Of a stretch of 64,000 bases of DNA, positions 27,180-34,510 are shown one piece after another. Origin of the DNA: Treponema sp. (lineage in GTDB: Bacteria > Spirochaetota > Spirochaetia > Treponematales > Treponemataceae); NCBI GenBank assembly GCA_022510905.1, contig JAFLSN010000013.1:1-64000 (forward strand), given 5' to 3'. How positions within the stretch are numbered: position 1 is the first letter of the stretch; each line of letters starts with the position of its first letter. Under the pieces are notes generated by a model. It did no database searches, was not told the origin of the DNA, and saw only the letters and a program-made list of their open reading frames with translations. The position numbers and the translations under genes are program-made.

Positions 27180-28031
27180 TTAGATTTTGTAGTCGTCGGG
27201 GTTGTCCATCATGCCGTGCTCAATCAGAATCTGTTCAAGGCGGTCCTGGGTGATTGGCGTTGGAATTGTGACCTGCTCGTTTTCGTCAATCTTTTTGGCA
27301 AGCTCCCGGTACACGTCGGCCTGGCTGCATTCCGGCTGATATTCAATCACGGTTTTGCGCCTGATTTCGGCCTGCTGCACCACATTGTTTCGCGGCACAA
27401 AATAGATGAGCTGTGTGTTCAGTTCTTTTGTGAACGCGCGGAGCAGTTCAAGCTCGTTGTCAACGTTGCGGCTGTTGCAGATGATGCCGCCTAGTCGCAC
27501 GTCTCCGCGCTCTGCGTAGCGTGAGATGCCTTTGCAGATGTTGTTCGCCGCATAAAGTGCCATCATTTCGCCCGATGCGACTATGTAGATTTCCTTGGCC
27601 TTGCCTTCGCGGATTGGCATTGCGAAACCGCCGCACACCACGTCGCCCAGCACATCGTAGAAAACGTAGTCGAGGTCATCGGTGTATGCGCCCATCTGTT
27701 CCAGCATGTTGATTGACGTGATGATGCCGCGTCCTGCGCAGCCTACGCCTGGCTCGGGGCCGCCGGATTCAACGCAGCGCACGCCCTTGTATCCGACTTT
27801 CACTAGGTCGTCAAGCTTGATTTCGGTTTTGTTGTCGCGGATTGTGTCGAGCACGGTCTTCTGGTGCAGGCCGCCGAGCAGAAGGCGTGTGGAATCGGCC
27901 TTGGGGTCGCATCCCACAACCATGATTTGTTTTCCGAGTTCCAGGAGGCCCGCCGTGAGGTTTTGGGTCGTGGTGGATTTTCCTATGCCGCCTTTGCCGT
28001 AGATCGCTATCTGTCTCAATTTTTTTGCCAT
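27180..28031 (-). CDS. NifH-like nitrogenase reductase (Fe protein)
   Basis: A 283-residue NifH/BchL-family ATPase. IAIYGKGGIGKSTTTQNL is the P-loop. Cys ligands for the intersubunit 4Fe-4S cluster are visible in GVGCAGRGI and DVLGDVVCGGFAMP. The Arg of CAGRG is the residue ADP-ribosylated in some nitrogenases. Length and conservation are those of a functional electron donor. It is divergent from the nifB-like gene by 1.1 kb and reads away from the component 1 genes. A perfect-spacing promoter and an ATTACTAGGTAAT dyad precede it. It should donate electrons to the K-like/D-like complex. Confidence 0.9.
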   Translation of the reverse strand: MAKKLRQIAIYGKGGIGKSTTTQNLTAGLLELGKQIMVVGCDPKADSTRLLLGGLHQKTVLDTIRDNKTEIKLDDLVKVGYKGVRCVESGGPEPGVGCAGRGIITSINMLEQMGAYTDDLDYVFYDVLGDVVCGGFAMPIREGKAKEIYIVASGEMMALYAANNICKGISRYAERGDVRLGGIICNSRNVDNELELLRAFTKELNTQLIYFVPRNNVVQQAEIRRKTVIEYQPECSQADVYRELAKKIDENEQVTIPTPITQDRLEQILIEHGMMDNPDDYKI

Positions 28032-28068
28032 CGCCTTTCTCCTTACGTAATCACGTATATTTCATATG

Positions 28069-28116
28069 GAATTACTAGGTAATGCTGAATATATCGGTTT
28101 TTTCGTATGCTGTCAA
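28069..28116 (-). promoter_or_regulatory. Promoter and dyad of the nifH-like gene
   Basis: TTGACA (28116-28111) and TATATT (28093-28088) are 17 bases apart on the minus strand. GAATTACTAGGTAATG (28069-28084), containing the dyad ATTAC-TAG-GTAAT, covers the expected start of transcription, as a repressor site would. Confidence 0.7.
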
Positions 28117-32048: not shown

Positions 32049-33011
32049 ATGGCAAAAAGAATTTATTCATCGATTGCAGATTTGGTGGGACGCACGCCGC
32101 TTCTTTCGCTTGGGGAATTTTCACGGCAAAAAAAACTTGACGTGCCGATTGTTGCAAAAGTGGAATATTTCAATCCCGCCGGAAGCCAAAAGGATCGCAT
32201 CGCGCTTGGCATGATTGAGCGGGCCGAAAAAGATCCGTCGTTCGACCCCAAAAAGACTACGCTGGTGGAAACAACGAGCGGCAACACTGGCATTGCTCTT
32301 GCGGCCCTGTGCGCGGCAAAAGGCTACAAACTCCGCATCTACATTCAGGACGTGGTTAGCATTGAGCGCCGGCAGGTGATTAAGGCATACGGCGCCGATT
32401 TGGTTCTGTTCAGCCAGGTGCCTGAAGCTGTGAAAGTTTTAAAAGAAACGAACGGCGATTTTGTTGCAGCCACGGCGGCCATCAAAAAAATGGCGGCCAA
32501 GGAAAAAGATGCCATCCTCCTGAACCAGATGCAGAACCCCGCGAATCCAGAAAGCCACTTTAAGACCACTGGGCGCGAGATCTGGAAAGACACCGGAGGC
32601 GACATCGATGTTCTGGTCGCCAGTGTCGGAACGGGCGGCACGTTGAGCGGAGCCGGGCGCTTCCTCAAAAATAAGAAGCCCGACATGCATGTGGTGGCCG
32701 TGCAGCCACGCGCCGACGAAACTGACATCACAGGCGTGCACCGTTTTTCGGATGTGCCTTCTGACCATTTTCCCGCGAATCTTGACCGCTCGGTGTACGA
32801 TGAGGTGCTTACTGCAAGCGCGAAAGATGCTTATGCAGCTTCCCGCCTGGTGGCAAAAACCGACGGACTTCTGGTGGGGTCTTCTGCGGGAGCTGCGCTC
32901 TGGGCGGCGGCAAAAGTTGCAAAGCGCCCTGACTTTGCCGGAAAAACCGTCTTGGCCATTCTGCCTGATACGGGACTACGCTATTTGAGTACATCGCTTT
33001 TTGAAGCGTAA
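32049..33011 (+). CDS. Cysteine synthase-like PLP enzyme inside the nitrogenase-like operon
   Basis: A 320-residue fold-type II PLP enzyme. The lysine that binds PLP is in NPAGSQKDRIA (Lys48), the substrate loop is ETTSGNTGIALA, the phosphate loop VGTGGTLSGAGR, and the end TGLRYLSTSLF is standard for CysK. It should condense O-acetylserine or a related activated amino acid with sulfide or a thiol. Gln in place of Val before the Lys, and TTSGNTG in place of PTSGNTG, are small departures. It lies between the two component 1 genes, which implies that it uses the reductase product, probably a reduced sulfur species. Confidence 0.87.
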   Translation: MAKRIYSSIADLVGRTPLLSLGEFSRQKKLDVPIVAKVEYFNPAGSQKDRIALGMIERAEKDPSFDPKKTTLVETTSGNTGIALAALCAAKGYKLRIYIQDVVSIERRQVIKAYGADLVLFSQVPEAVKVLKETNGDFVAATAAIKKMAAKEKDAILLNQMQNPANPESHFKTTGREIWKDTGGDIDVLVASVGTGGTLSGAGRFLKNKKPDMHVVAVQPRADETDITGVHRFSDVPSDHFPANLDRSVYDEVLTASAKDAYAASRLVAKTDGLLVGSSAGAALWAAAKVAKRPDFAGKTVLAILPDTGLRYLSTSLFEA

Positions 33012-33040
33012 CAATCATAACAATTCTGGAGGAATGTTTT

Positions 33041-34510
33041 ATGGGATTCAATTTTAAGAACAGCAATATCGGTGTGCGCGAAGCTCGGCTTGGCTCCATT
33101 ACAGGTTACACGGGCGACCTTGAGACTCTTGTGTACCGCTCGCAGTGCGGTTCGCTCAAAAACCGTGAGCGCTGCTTTAGCCAGTCAAGTTCGTGCCTTT
33201 CGGTGTGCGCCTTGAACGCTCTGTGCGCCATCAAGAATGTCGCGGTGATTTATCATGCGCCGTCTGGGTGCATGGCCATGGCGCAGGGGGATGAAGTCAA
33301 ATTCCGCCAGCTTGCAGCCCGCATCAACGAAAAAACAAATTCCGTGTTCGTTTGCACGGACTTGAACGAAAAAGACACTGTGTTTGGCGCGATTGAGCCG
33401 TTGCGCAAGACTGTGGAGCACACGTACAACACATACCATCCGGATGCGATTTTTATTTCGTCAAGCTGCGTGTCGGGTGTGATCGGCGAAGACATCGATG
33501 GGCTTGCCGATGAGCTCCGCGATGAATTTGACGTGCCGATCATTCCCGTGCACTGCGAGGGCTTCAAGAGCCGCATCTGGGCTTCCGGCTTTGACATTTC
33601 GGACCACGCGGTAATGCAGGGCATTGTTCAGCCTCCCAAAGAAAAACGCCCTGTGATAAATTTCAAGAATTTCTATGAAAGCGCCCGTCCGCTCATCACC
33701 AAAATCTTTGCGGAACTTGGGGTAAAGCCGCAGTTTCTGTACTGCAATTCCACGGTGGAAGAACTGCGCCACTTGAGCGAAAGCCTTGCCACAGTGTGCA
33801 TCTGCGGAACGCTCGGAACCTACCTCGGAAACGCGCTCGAAGAAACCTACGGAGTTCCATATGTGCGCACCATCAACCCCAACGGCGTTACAGGCTTTGA
33901 AACCTGGCTCCGCCGCATAGGCGAGGTGATCGGAAAAACCGCAGAAGTTGAAAATTACATTGCCCGCCAGCGCGCAGTTTATATTCCGCAGATTGAAGAA
34001 GTTAAAAAATCGCTCAAAGGACTTCGCGCCGTGATTGGCATGGGCCCCGGCTACACATACGAAGTGGCACGAGTCCTGCAGGAACTCGGCATGGAAGTTG
34101 TGTATGCGCTCGCCTGGCACTACGACTACAAGTACGACAACGGACAGGTTCCGCCTGCGCTGGAGCATCTGCAAAAAACTTCCCCCAAGGATTTAAAGCT
34201 TTCCGTTGCCGACCAGCAGAACTACGAAGTGATGAACATCTTGCACCGGTACAAGCCTGACGTGTACTTTAGCCGGCATCCAGGTACCACGGTGTGGGCA
34301 ATAAAGCAAGGCTATGCCGCCGTGTATGTCGCAGACGAGTACATGATTTTTGGATATGAGGGAACGTTGAGTTTCGCAAAAACCGTGCTCGACACCATTC
34401 GGAACCGCAGCTTTGAGAAAAATCTCGCGGCCCGCATTCAGCTGCCATATACCAAGTGGTGGTATGAACAGCAGGAAGACCGCTTTATCAAGGCTGAAGG
34501 CGAACGCTGA
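33041..34510 (+). CDS. Nitrogenase component 1-like subunit, NifD-like
   Basis: A 489-residue NifD/NifE-type protein. Cys56 (SVCALNAL), Cys77 (YHAPSGC) and Cys143 (SSSCVSGVIGEDI) fit P-cluster positions, and HCEGFKSRIWASGFDISDHA is the NifD-type CEGFRG block. In the cofactor region VCICGTLGTYLG keeps a Cys (253 or 255) where NifD has Cys275. Around the NifD His442 position the sequence reads YVADEYMIFGYEG, without a clear His. The N-terminus is unusually Cys-rich (36, 45, 52, 56, 62, 77). GGAGG precedes the start. A terminator follows. It is the likely active-site subunit, with a substrate other than N2. Confidence 0.86.
   Translation: MGFNFKNSNIGVREARLGSITGYTGDLETLVYRSQCGSLKNRERCFSQSSSCLSVCALNALCAIKNVAVIYHAPSGCMAMAQGDEVKFRQLAARINEKTNSVFVCTDLNEKDTVFGAIEPLRKTVEHTYNTYHPDAIFISSSCVSGVIGEDIDGLADELRDEFDVPIIPVHCEGFKSRIWASGFDISDHAVMQGIVQPPKEKRPVINFKNFYESARPLITKIFAELGVKPQFLYCNSTVEELRHLSESLATVCICGTLGTYLGNALEETYGVPYVRTINPNGVTGFETWLRRIGEVIGKTAEVENYIARQRAVYIPQIEEVKKSLKGLRAVIGMGPGYTYEVARVLQELGMEVVYALAWHYDYKYDNGQVPPALEHLQKTSPKDLKLSVADQQNYEVMNILHRYKPDVYFSRHPGTTVWAIKQGYAAVYVADEYMIFGYEGTLSFAKTVLDTIRNRSFEKNLAARIQLPYTKWWYEQQEDRFIKAEGER

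Follow-up and report, generated by a model that had tools for sequence, protein, structure and literature searches.

A nitrogenase-like Treponema locus beside methylthio-alkane reductase in phylogeny and linked to its own cysteine synthase paralog: a candidate carbon–sulfur reductase

A nitrogenase-like locus with an embedded cysteine synthase (CysK) gene lies within a 64,000-nucleotide stretch of Treponema sp. DNA (the window), which is part of contig 5 in a 2.37-Mb draft genome. Its six genes are all present as intact open reading frames (ORFs). On the minus strand, H encodes a NifH-like reductase (27180..28031) that scores 462 bits with the nifH model, above the cut-off of 394. Divergent from it, the plus strand carries in succession B, for a NifB-like radical S-adenosylmethionine (SAM) protein (29126..29998); X, for a NifX-like protein of uncertain start (30154..30663; Nitro_FeMo-Co domain, 62 bits); K, for one component-1 subunit (30647..31954); the gene for a CysK paralog, here termed the linked CysK (32049..33011; 299-300 bits with the cysK model, cut-off 351); and D, for the other component-1 subunit (33041..34510). 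A terminator-like stem of 12 pairs with a T-rich tail follows D (34535..34563, plus strand). The original prediction for this DNA had listed these genes, with CysK between the two subunits and a divergent nifH, and the ORFs and family scans bear it out. It had also described a compact NifB with a CNIECRFC motif. That motif is present in B, which scores 276 bits with the nifB model, below the cut-off of 344; here a gene of its own encodes the NifX-like part, and for the start of B an ATG at 29126 is preferred to a TTG at 29114.

The proposed absence of nifE, nifN and a homocitrate synthase is upheld. Oxidored_nitro family scans give two proteins (244 and 243 bits), and because PF00148 matches only D and K in the 2.37-Mb draft (92% complete), no further component-1 genes, and hence neither nifE nor nifN, were found. 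For nifV (homocitrate synthase) the best score is 184 bits, far below the cut-off of 463, as is the case in all 14 control genomes.

Neither D nor K passes the cut-off of any NCBIfam component-1 model. Compared with solved structures, D scores 312 bits with the MarD subunit of methylthio-alkane reductase (Mar; MarBHDK of Rhodospirillum rubrum, PDB 9fmg and 9d9u), the next chains reaching 127 (9p1x, an alpha chain) and 95 bits, and K scores 344 bits with MarK, the next chain reaching 83. An AlphaFold2 model of D (mean predicted local distance difference test score 87.8) has MarD as its best match (9fmg_A; template modeling (TM) score 0.88 by query) and aligns with nitrogenase chains at TM scores near 0.7. 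Models for BchN, BchB and CfbD all fall far below their cut-offs on both proteins, the best being BchB on K (114 of 490 bits). Judged by these scores and, for D, by the predicted structure, Mar is the known type closest to D and K, and the original prediction was right to single it out as the relevant NifB-dependent relative.

For phylogenetic analysis, relatives were gathered by similarity to D, and not by neighborhood, from the best 80 of 240 named loci together with stretches of spirochete genomes. Exclusion of D below 400 and K below 390 amino acids, of rows with stops and of identical sequences reduced 153 D rows to 148 and 149 K rows to 144. The D tree was rooted with the NifD and NifE sequences from seven spirochete genomes, with branch support from the Shimodaira–Hasegawa-like approximate likelihood ratio test (SH-aLRT). 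In both trees Mar is represented by a single reference, and references for Nfa, Bch and Cfb are absent; Bch and Cfb were compared only through family and PDB scores, which are weak. The window D falls in a clade of 91 members (clade A; SH-aLRT 99) that is sister to 16 sequences including MarD (98). The K tree concurs, with 86 tips (100) beside 18 that hold MarK (95). Thus, with respect to this single Mar reference, D and K are sister to the MarD/MarK clade rather than members of it, and D is only 33.8% identical to MarD. Neither subunit falls in the NifD/E or NifK/N clades, and two further sets of D sequences, one resembling the Isr enzyme of Rhodobacter capsulatus and one that we call 'D2', fall outside clade A and the Mar clade alike. 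On this phylogenetic evidence clade A is a separate group beside Mar, as had been proposed.

The ligands of the MarDK clusters have been defined (PMC12552129), and their counterparts can be located by alignment. The six P-cluster cysteines correspond to Cys52, Cys77 and Cys143 of D and to Cys12, Cys36 and Cys95 of K, numbered from the ATG at 30647. In D, Cys255 matches MarD Cys270, Arg412-His413 match Arg428-His429 on loop I, and Trp180, Phe184 and His360 match Trp195, Phe199 and His375. This set is kept in all 91 D sequences of clade A and in all 16 of the Mar clade, and the three cysteines of K are kept in 129 of 129 K rows. Because the Mar-type ligands are retained, clade A is predicted to share the cofactor of Mar. 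As in Mar, moreover, a NifB-type partner accompanies the subunits and no NifEN was found. A true nitrogenase is ruled out by the residues, by the missing NifEN and by the trees: Trp180 and Phe184 occupy the sites of NifD Gln191 and His195, and His442 has no counterpart. The two groups nonetheless differ at 25 positions that are conserved one way in clade A (at least 90%) and another in the Mar clade (at least 70%), among them Tyr409 and Tyr361, which are near ligands in sequence. The substrate pocket of clade A may therefore differ from that of Mar. MarD His194 is replaced by Ile179 in the window, at a site that varies within the Mar clade also.

The 24 rows of the 'D2' group have their own pattern, with the Cys270 counterpart in 24 of 24, the P-cluster cysteines nearly always present and the Arg428-His429 loop absent. 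These genes often stand beside importer genes of their own (e.g., L112:12448-13890, L126:14862-16340, and L146:4809 and 16449).

We surveyed the genes around D by building neighborhoods from ORF similarity and scanning representatives with libraries of hidden Markov models; loci L001-L032 were left out of the second clustering. Of the 91 members of clade A, 72 have a CysK gene no farther than 5.5 kb from D; among the 66 loci with complete 3-kb flanks, 55 have one within 3 kb. Read along the strand of D, the order is K-D-CysK in 31 cases (plus one with two CysK genes), CysK-D-K in 30, D-K-CysK in three and D-CysK in two, with no CysK in reach in 23. The original expectation of a conserved cysK is thus met as to linkage but not as to arrangement, since the K-CysK-D order is found once among the 91, in the window itself. 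A linkage of this frequency, maintained across several gene orders, rules out a chance neighborhood. Other genes within 5.5 kb of the 91 D genes encode PatB (34), LysR (34), MetB (6), CysE (4) and MetY (2). Around the 43 D genes with at least 8 kb on both sides, genes within 10 kb encode CysK (37), PatB (23), MetB (13), CysE (7) and MetY (4), and sulfite reductase in none. Among the named hosts are Treponema, Fibrobacter, Lachnospiraceae, Ruminococcus, Megamonas and Oscillospiraceae. Most are metagenome-assembled genomes (MAGs), and the isolates include T. saccharophilum, T. ruminis and T. bryantii, the last with the order K-D-CysK-LysR (L057). On contigs labeled Fibrobacter (L033, L036 and L038-L041), D is 79-80% identical to the window D, through either interphylum transfer or misbinning.

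The linked CysK is distinct from the housekeeping enzyme of this genome. Another CysK, encoded on contig 3, scores 440 bits, above the cut-off of 351 that the linked copy misses, and the two are 44.6% identical. In a tree of 115 CysK proteins, from which seven rows of 280 amino acids or fewer (four of them linked copies) had been dropped, all 59 DK-adjacent copies form one clade with 14 others (bootstrap 100, SH-aLRT 99). Outside it fall 18 B-adjacent copies, the genome's other CysK, E. coli CysK and 21 further copies. These observations rule out a housekeeping CysK that merely happens to lie nearby. Distances among the linked copies also follow those among D sequences (Mantel r 0.62, matched in 0 of 2000 permutations, 43 loci), whereas the correlation is weak for B-adjacent copies (r 0.14, 245 of 2000), which comprise 14 loci and a smaller range; D sequences more than 97% identical had been removed beforehand, reducing 59 loci to 43 and 17 to 14.

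Active-site residues of CysK are present in the window copy (Lys48, TSGNT at 76-80, Gln160 and Ser279). Throughout the linked clade the catalytic lysine, TSGN, Gln143 and Ser273 are kept in 59 of 59, and the full TSGNT and GTGGT motifs with 5 to 8 exceptions. In contrast, Met120, Phe144 and Gly229-Ile230-Gly231, which are invariant in 20 rows of housekeeping type, are replaced in most linked copies. The altered pocket may reflect use of another nucleophile, or freedom from CysE binding.

The gene that accompanies these enzymes differs with enzyme type: sulfite reductase for Isr-like enzymes, MetY for some members of the Mar clade and CysK for clade A. Two Treponema genomes with near-identical Isr-like loci (G347 and G417) carry H-D-K-MetY-sulfite reductase-TusA-ThiS-ThiF in one run behind Ssu-type importer genes, TusA being named by eye because no NCBIfam model matched. 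Outside the genus, G212 has sulfite reductase on the opposite strand beside H-D-K; in the remaining three Isr-like genomes of the genus, the Isr-like and sulfite reductase genes are on different short contigs. Two loci of the Mar clade (L122 and L123) have a MetY-like gene directly before D, with scores just below the cut-off. A rule of one partner per enzyme class proved too simple, given MetY in some clade-A islands and CysK near some Mar-clade D genes. At L149, L179 and L148, Isr-like genes stand beside genes for sulfite reductase, a TusA-like protein, ThiS and ThiF; L149 and L179 have MetY-like and Ssu-type importer genes as well.

In the window genome, neither sulfite reductase (PF01077) nor 3'-phosphoadenosine 5'-phosphosulfate (PAPS) reductase (PF01507) was detected. 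Across the genus, 12 of 146 genomes contain PF01077, and PF01507 has matches in 5 of 11 genomes searched. A clade-A D, called here by at least 48% identity to the window D with fragments included and not by tree, occurs in 43 of the 146 genomes, one of which has sulfite reductase. An Isr-like D occurs in five, all with PF01077 (p 3.5e-6 versus clade A). Elsewhere in the window genome is a CysE-like protein of 172 bits; the model cut-off of 211 is passed by no genome of the genus.

We consider it fairly probable that the locus encodes a Mar-type carbon–sulfur reductase, and that sulfide or a small thiol is freed by it and fixed into cysteine by the linked CysK. This reading starts from the observed gene content, Mar-type ligands, sister position, conserved CysK linkage and distinct linked-CysK clade. 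We liken the enzyme to Mar because its cluster ligands are those of Mar, and do not class it as Mar because D and K lie beside the MarD/MarK clade and because CysK, not MetY, is the linked partner of clade A. In the proposed scheme, an ABC importer would bring an organosulfur compound into the cell. B and X would make an Fe8S9C cluster and, with neither NifEN nor homocitrate involved, hand it on to D, as is the case for Mar. H would hydrolyze ATP and pass electrons to the P-cluster of DK, and D would cleave a carbon–sulfur bond of the compound. The CysE-like protein would make O-acetylserine, which would serve as the sulfur acceptor on the linked CysK. Like the original prediction, whose overall interpretation is supported, we infer that a reduced sulfur compound is released and captured as cysteine. 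The outcomes that the prediction had named as refuting it, subunits inside the nitrogenase or Bch/Cfb clades or a lack of conserved sulfur-gene linkage, were not observed, the comparison with Bch and Cfb being by scores.

The main ground for predicting that the product is sulfide is that the partner gene differs with enzyme type. Sulfide is further favored over a small thiol because sulfite reductase and PAPS reductase are both undetected in the genome, and because some of the related islands encode MetB, PatB, MetE and MetF, which lead from cysteine to methionine and would be needless for a methylated sulfur product.

Several observations weigh against this interpretation. The altered pocket of the linked CysK implies that its nucleophile may not be sulfide. 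PF01507 is found in three of nine clade-A genomes searched, the window genome being among the nine, and sulfite reductase is not significantly rarer in clade-A genomes (1 of 43) than in the rest of the genus (11 of 103; p 0.11). The idea that clade A is poorer in this enzyme than the genus was thus set aside, the strong contrast being only with the five Isr-like genomes, two of which (G347 and G417) are near-identical at this locus. MetY is encoded on another contig of this genome and in some clade-A islands (the two and four neighborhoods counted above, and plasmid pTS2 of T. saccharophilum, where D has no CysK within 5.5 kb). In 19 of the 91 members of clade A, D is without a CysK within 5.5 kb; eight of these, T. 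saccharophilum among them, are fully flanked. CysK is also near 6 of 15 Mar-clade D genes, in part because islands are shared with clade-A genes. PatB was not found in the window genome at E 1e-40, and this draft is 92% complete.

The strongest alternative, which we regard as doubtful, is a working methylthio-alkane reductase that frees methanethiol from methylthio compounds, to be converted to methionine by MetY or to S-methylcysteine by the linked CysK. Such an enzyme would account for the shared cluster ligands and nearest structures, MetY is present in the genome, and the altered linked-CysK pocket could fit a thiol. However, D and K are sister to the MarD/MarK clade and not within it, only 2 of 91 clade-A loci have MetY within 5.5 kb, and the 25 positions are conserved otherwise than in the Mar clade. 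A methanethiol route through the general MetY may nonetheless operate.

It is unlikely that the linked CysK instead provides the cysteine that goes into the large Fe-S clusters and captures no product. Such a supply role is attributed to the cysE1 gene beside the Azotobacter nif genes, and some Firmicute islands hold NifS-like and CysE genes plus a NifU-like protein (named by eye). Still, the genome has another, higher-scoring CysK, the nearby importers, LysR, PatB, MetB and MetE/MetF fit sulfur nutrition, and D is tracked more closely by the linked CysK than by B-adjacent copies.

Very unlikely is a reductase of isethionate or another sulfonate that releases sulfite, like IsrHDK. Isr resembles the window in its nitrogenase-like HDK, radical SAM partner (IsrB), nearby importer and role in sulfur assimilation (PMC11423573), a role that is predicted for the window, and Ssu-type importers occur near part of clade A. 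Yet the window keeps the residues at MarD sites 66, 158 and 270 that Isr-like D sequences lack; IsrD itself is described as having no counterparts of NifD Cys62, Cys154, Cys275 and His442, of which the window keeps the three cysteines, and IsrB as not NifB-like (PMC11423573). Sulfite reductase, undetected in this genome and found in none of the 43 well-flanked clade-A neighborhoods, is carried by five of five Isr-like genomes. We therefore set Isr aside on its ligand differences and the missing sulfite reductase. Least probable of all is N2 fixation without NifEN by an enzyme of group IV-A (Nfa-like): Endomicrobium, in which Nfa are the only nif-like genes, takes up 15N2 (PMC9147875), and the locus likewise has H, B and X without NifEN, but Trp180 and Phe184 are shared with Mar, an enzyme unable to reduce N2 (PMC12552129), His442 has no counterpart, and the linkage is to sulfur genes.

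A broader form of the proposed carbon–sulfur reduction can be put forward only tentatively. Clade A would be a further class of carbon–sulfur reductase in gut Spirochaetota, Fibrobacterota and Bacillota, paired fixedly with its own CysK, which loads sulfide or a thiol onto O-acetylserine, and arranged in exchangeable DK-plus-importer cassettes that share one H and one B. Four genomes (G232, G287, G301 and G307) each have three D genes, one strong NifH and one NifB-like protein, so that several catalytic pairs may draw on a single reductase and a single source of cofactor. Every DK pair in several of the islands is accompanied by its own importer, of amino-acid or Ssu type. A comparable arrangement is described for NflDK1-5 of Heliophilum fasciatum, with several DK pairs, single H and B and no NifEN; NflDK5 groups with Mar, and, unlike clade A, the available description has no DK-CysK linkage (PMC9147875). 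The three-D loci are L134-L135 (G232), L130-L131 (G287), L117-L118 (G301) and L126 (G307). Two islands are on plasmids: that of T. saccharophilum JCM 32279 on the 382-kb pTS2 (L191, NZ_AP025290.1), and that of Candidatus Chlorohelix (L192, NZ_CP128401.1) on one of 375 kb, where two H-D-K sets are joined by importer genes and a gene annotated as MetY.

Behind H in the window, the minus strand carries ATP-binding cassette (ABC) importer genes of the amino-acid type. They encode an ATPase of the polar-amino-acid type, whose family recurs near D in relatives (23970..24722), two permeases (24719..25399, of a family common to the relatives' islands, and 25396..26094, with a HEQRo_perm_3TM domain at 58 bits, above its cut-off) and a substrate-binding protein (26113..26925; SBP_bac_3, 89 bits). 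A second substrate-binding protein lies beyond D (34707..35570, minus strand; SBP_bac_3, 104 bits). These flanking genes had been called cystine-type, a label that is not established because cystine transport models score below their cut-offs, as does TcyN on the ATPase (310 of 406 bits). Among fully flanked clade-A D genes, 30 of 54 have an importer gene within 5.5 kb, and since amino-acid-type and Ssu-type importers both occur, they leave the substrate unsettled. Farther downstream, past a tRNA gene (35894-35966), an ankyrin-repeat protein is encoded at 36128-37207.

The 1.1-kb gap between H and B contains two promoter-like sites pointing outward, one facing H (28088..28116, minus strand; 11 of 12 consensus matches) and one facing B (28902..28930, plus strand; 10 of 12), in a region with nine such sites observed against 5.9 expected. 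A candidate shared operator, TATGAAATATA, occurs as exact copies upstream of H (28056..28066, minus strand) and of B (28910..28920, plus strand). These are its only occurrences within one mismatch in the 64 kb, where 0.37 are expected; two or more were found in 4 of 100 shuffles. The paired sites and repeated motif suggest joint regulation of the H and B arms, although TATGAAATATA is not generally conserved in relatives, apart from a few cases with one mismatch. An Rfam search of the window and ten relatives found no sulfur riboswitch, only three tRNAs and one cobalamin riboswitch, the latter a few kilobases past the nitrogenase-like genes of a Megamonas MAG (L089:16173-16358).

Within the literature found, a sulfur role is known for two nitrogenase-like enzymes, Mar and Isr. 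A search of mostly open-access papers found a DK operon with cysteine synthase only in PMC13067680, the available text of which describes a group IV operon of the spirochete Pillotina corrugata with nifK, nifD and cysteine synthase together. Its authors suggest a sulfur role; by this description the operon resembles the window, but also has leucine-rich-repeat genes, with nifB and nifH elsewhere (PMC13067680). The same search found no paper joining nitrogenase-like enzymes with O-acetylserine, and none reporting the clade-wide linkage, the separate CysK clade or the position sister to Mar.

The retention of Mar ligands together with 25 differing positions offers a natural comparison for how the substrate reduced at an Fe8S9C cluster depends on the surrounding protein. 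Since clade A is present in cultured species, the question is open to experiment. If the proposed function is correct, gut anaerobes with no detected sulfite or PAPS reductase, such as the bacterium of this draft genome, would be able to turn organic sulfur into cysteine in an ATP-driven reaction, which might let them live on organic sulfur under anaerobic conditions. As in the Mar reaction, the carbon product might be a small hydrocarbon, in which case hydrocarbon release in the rumen might also be affected.

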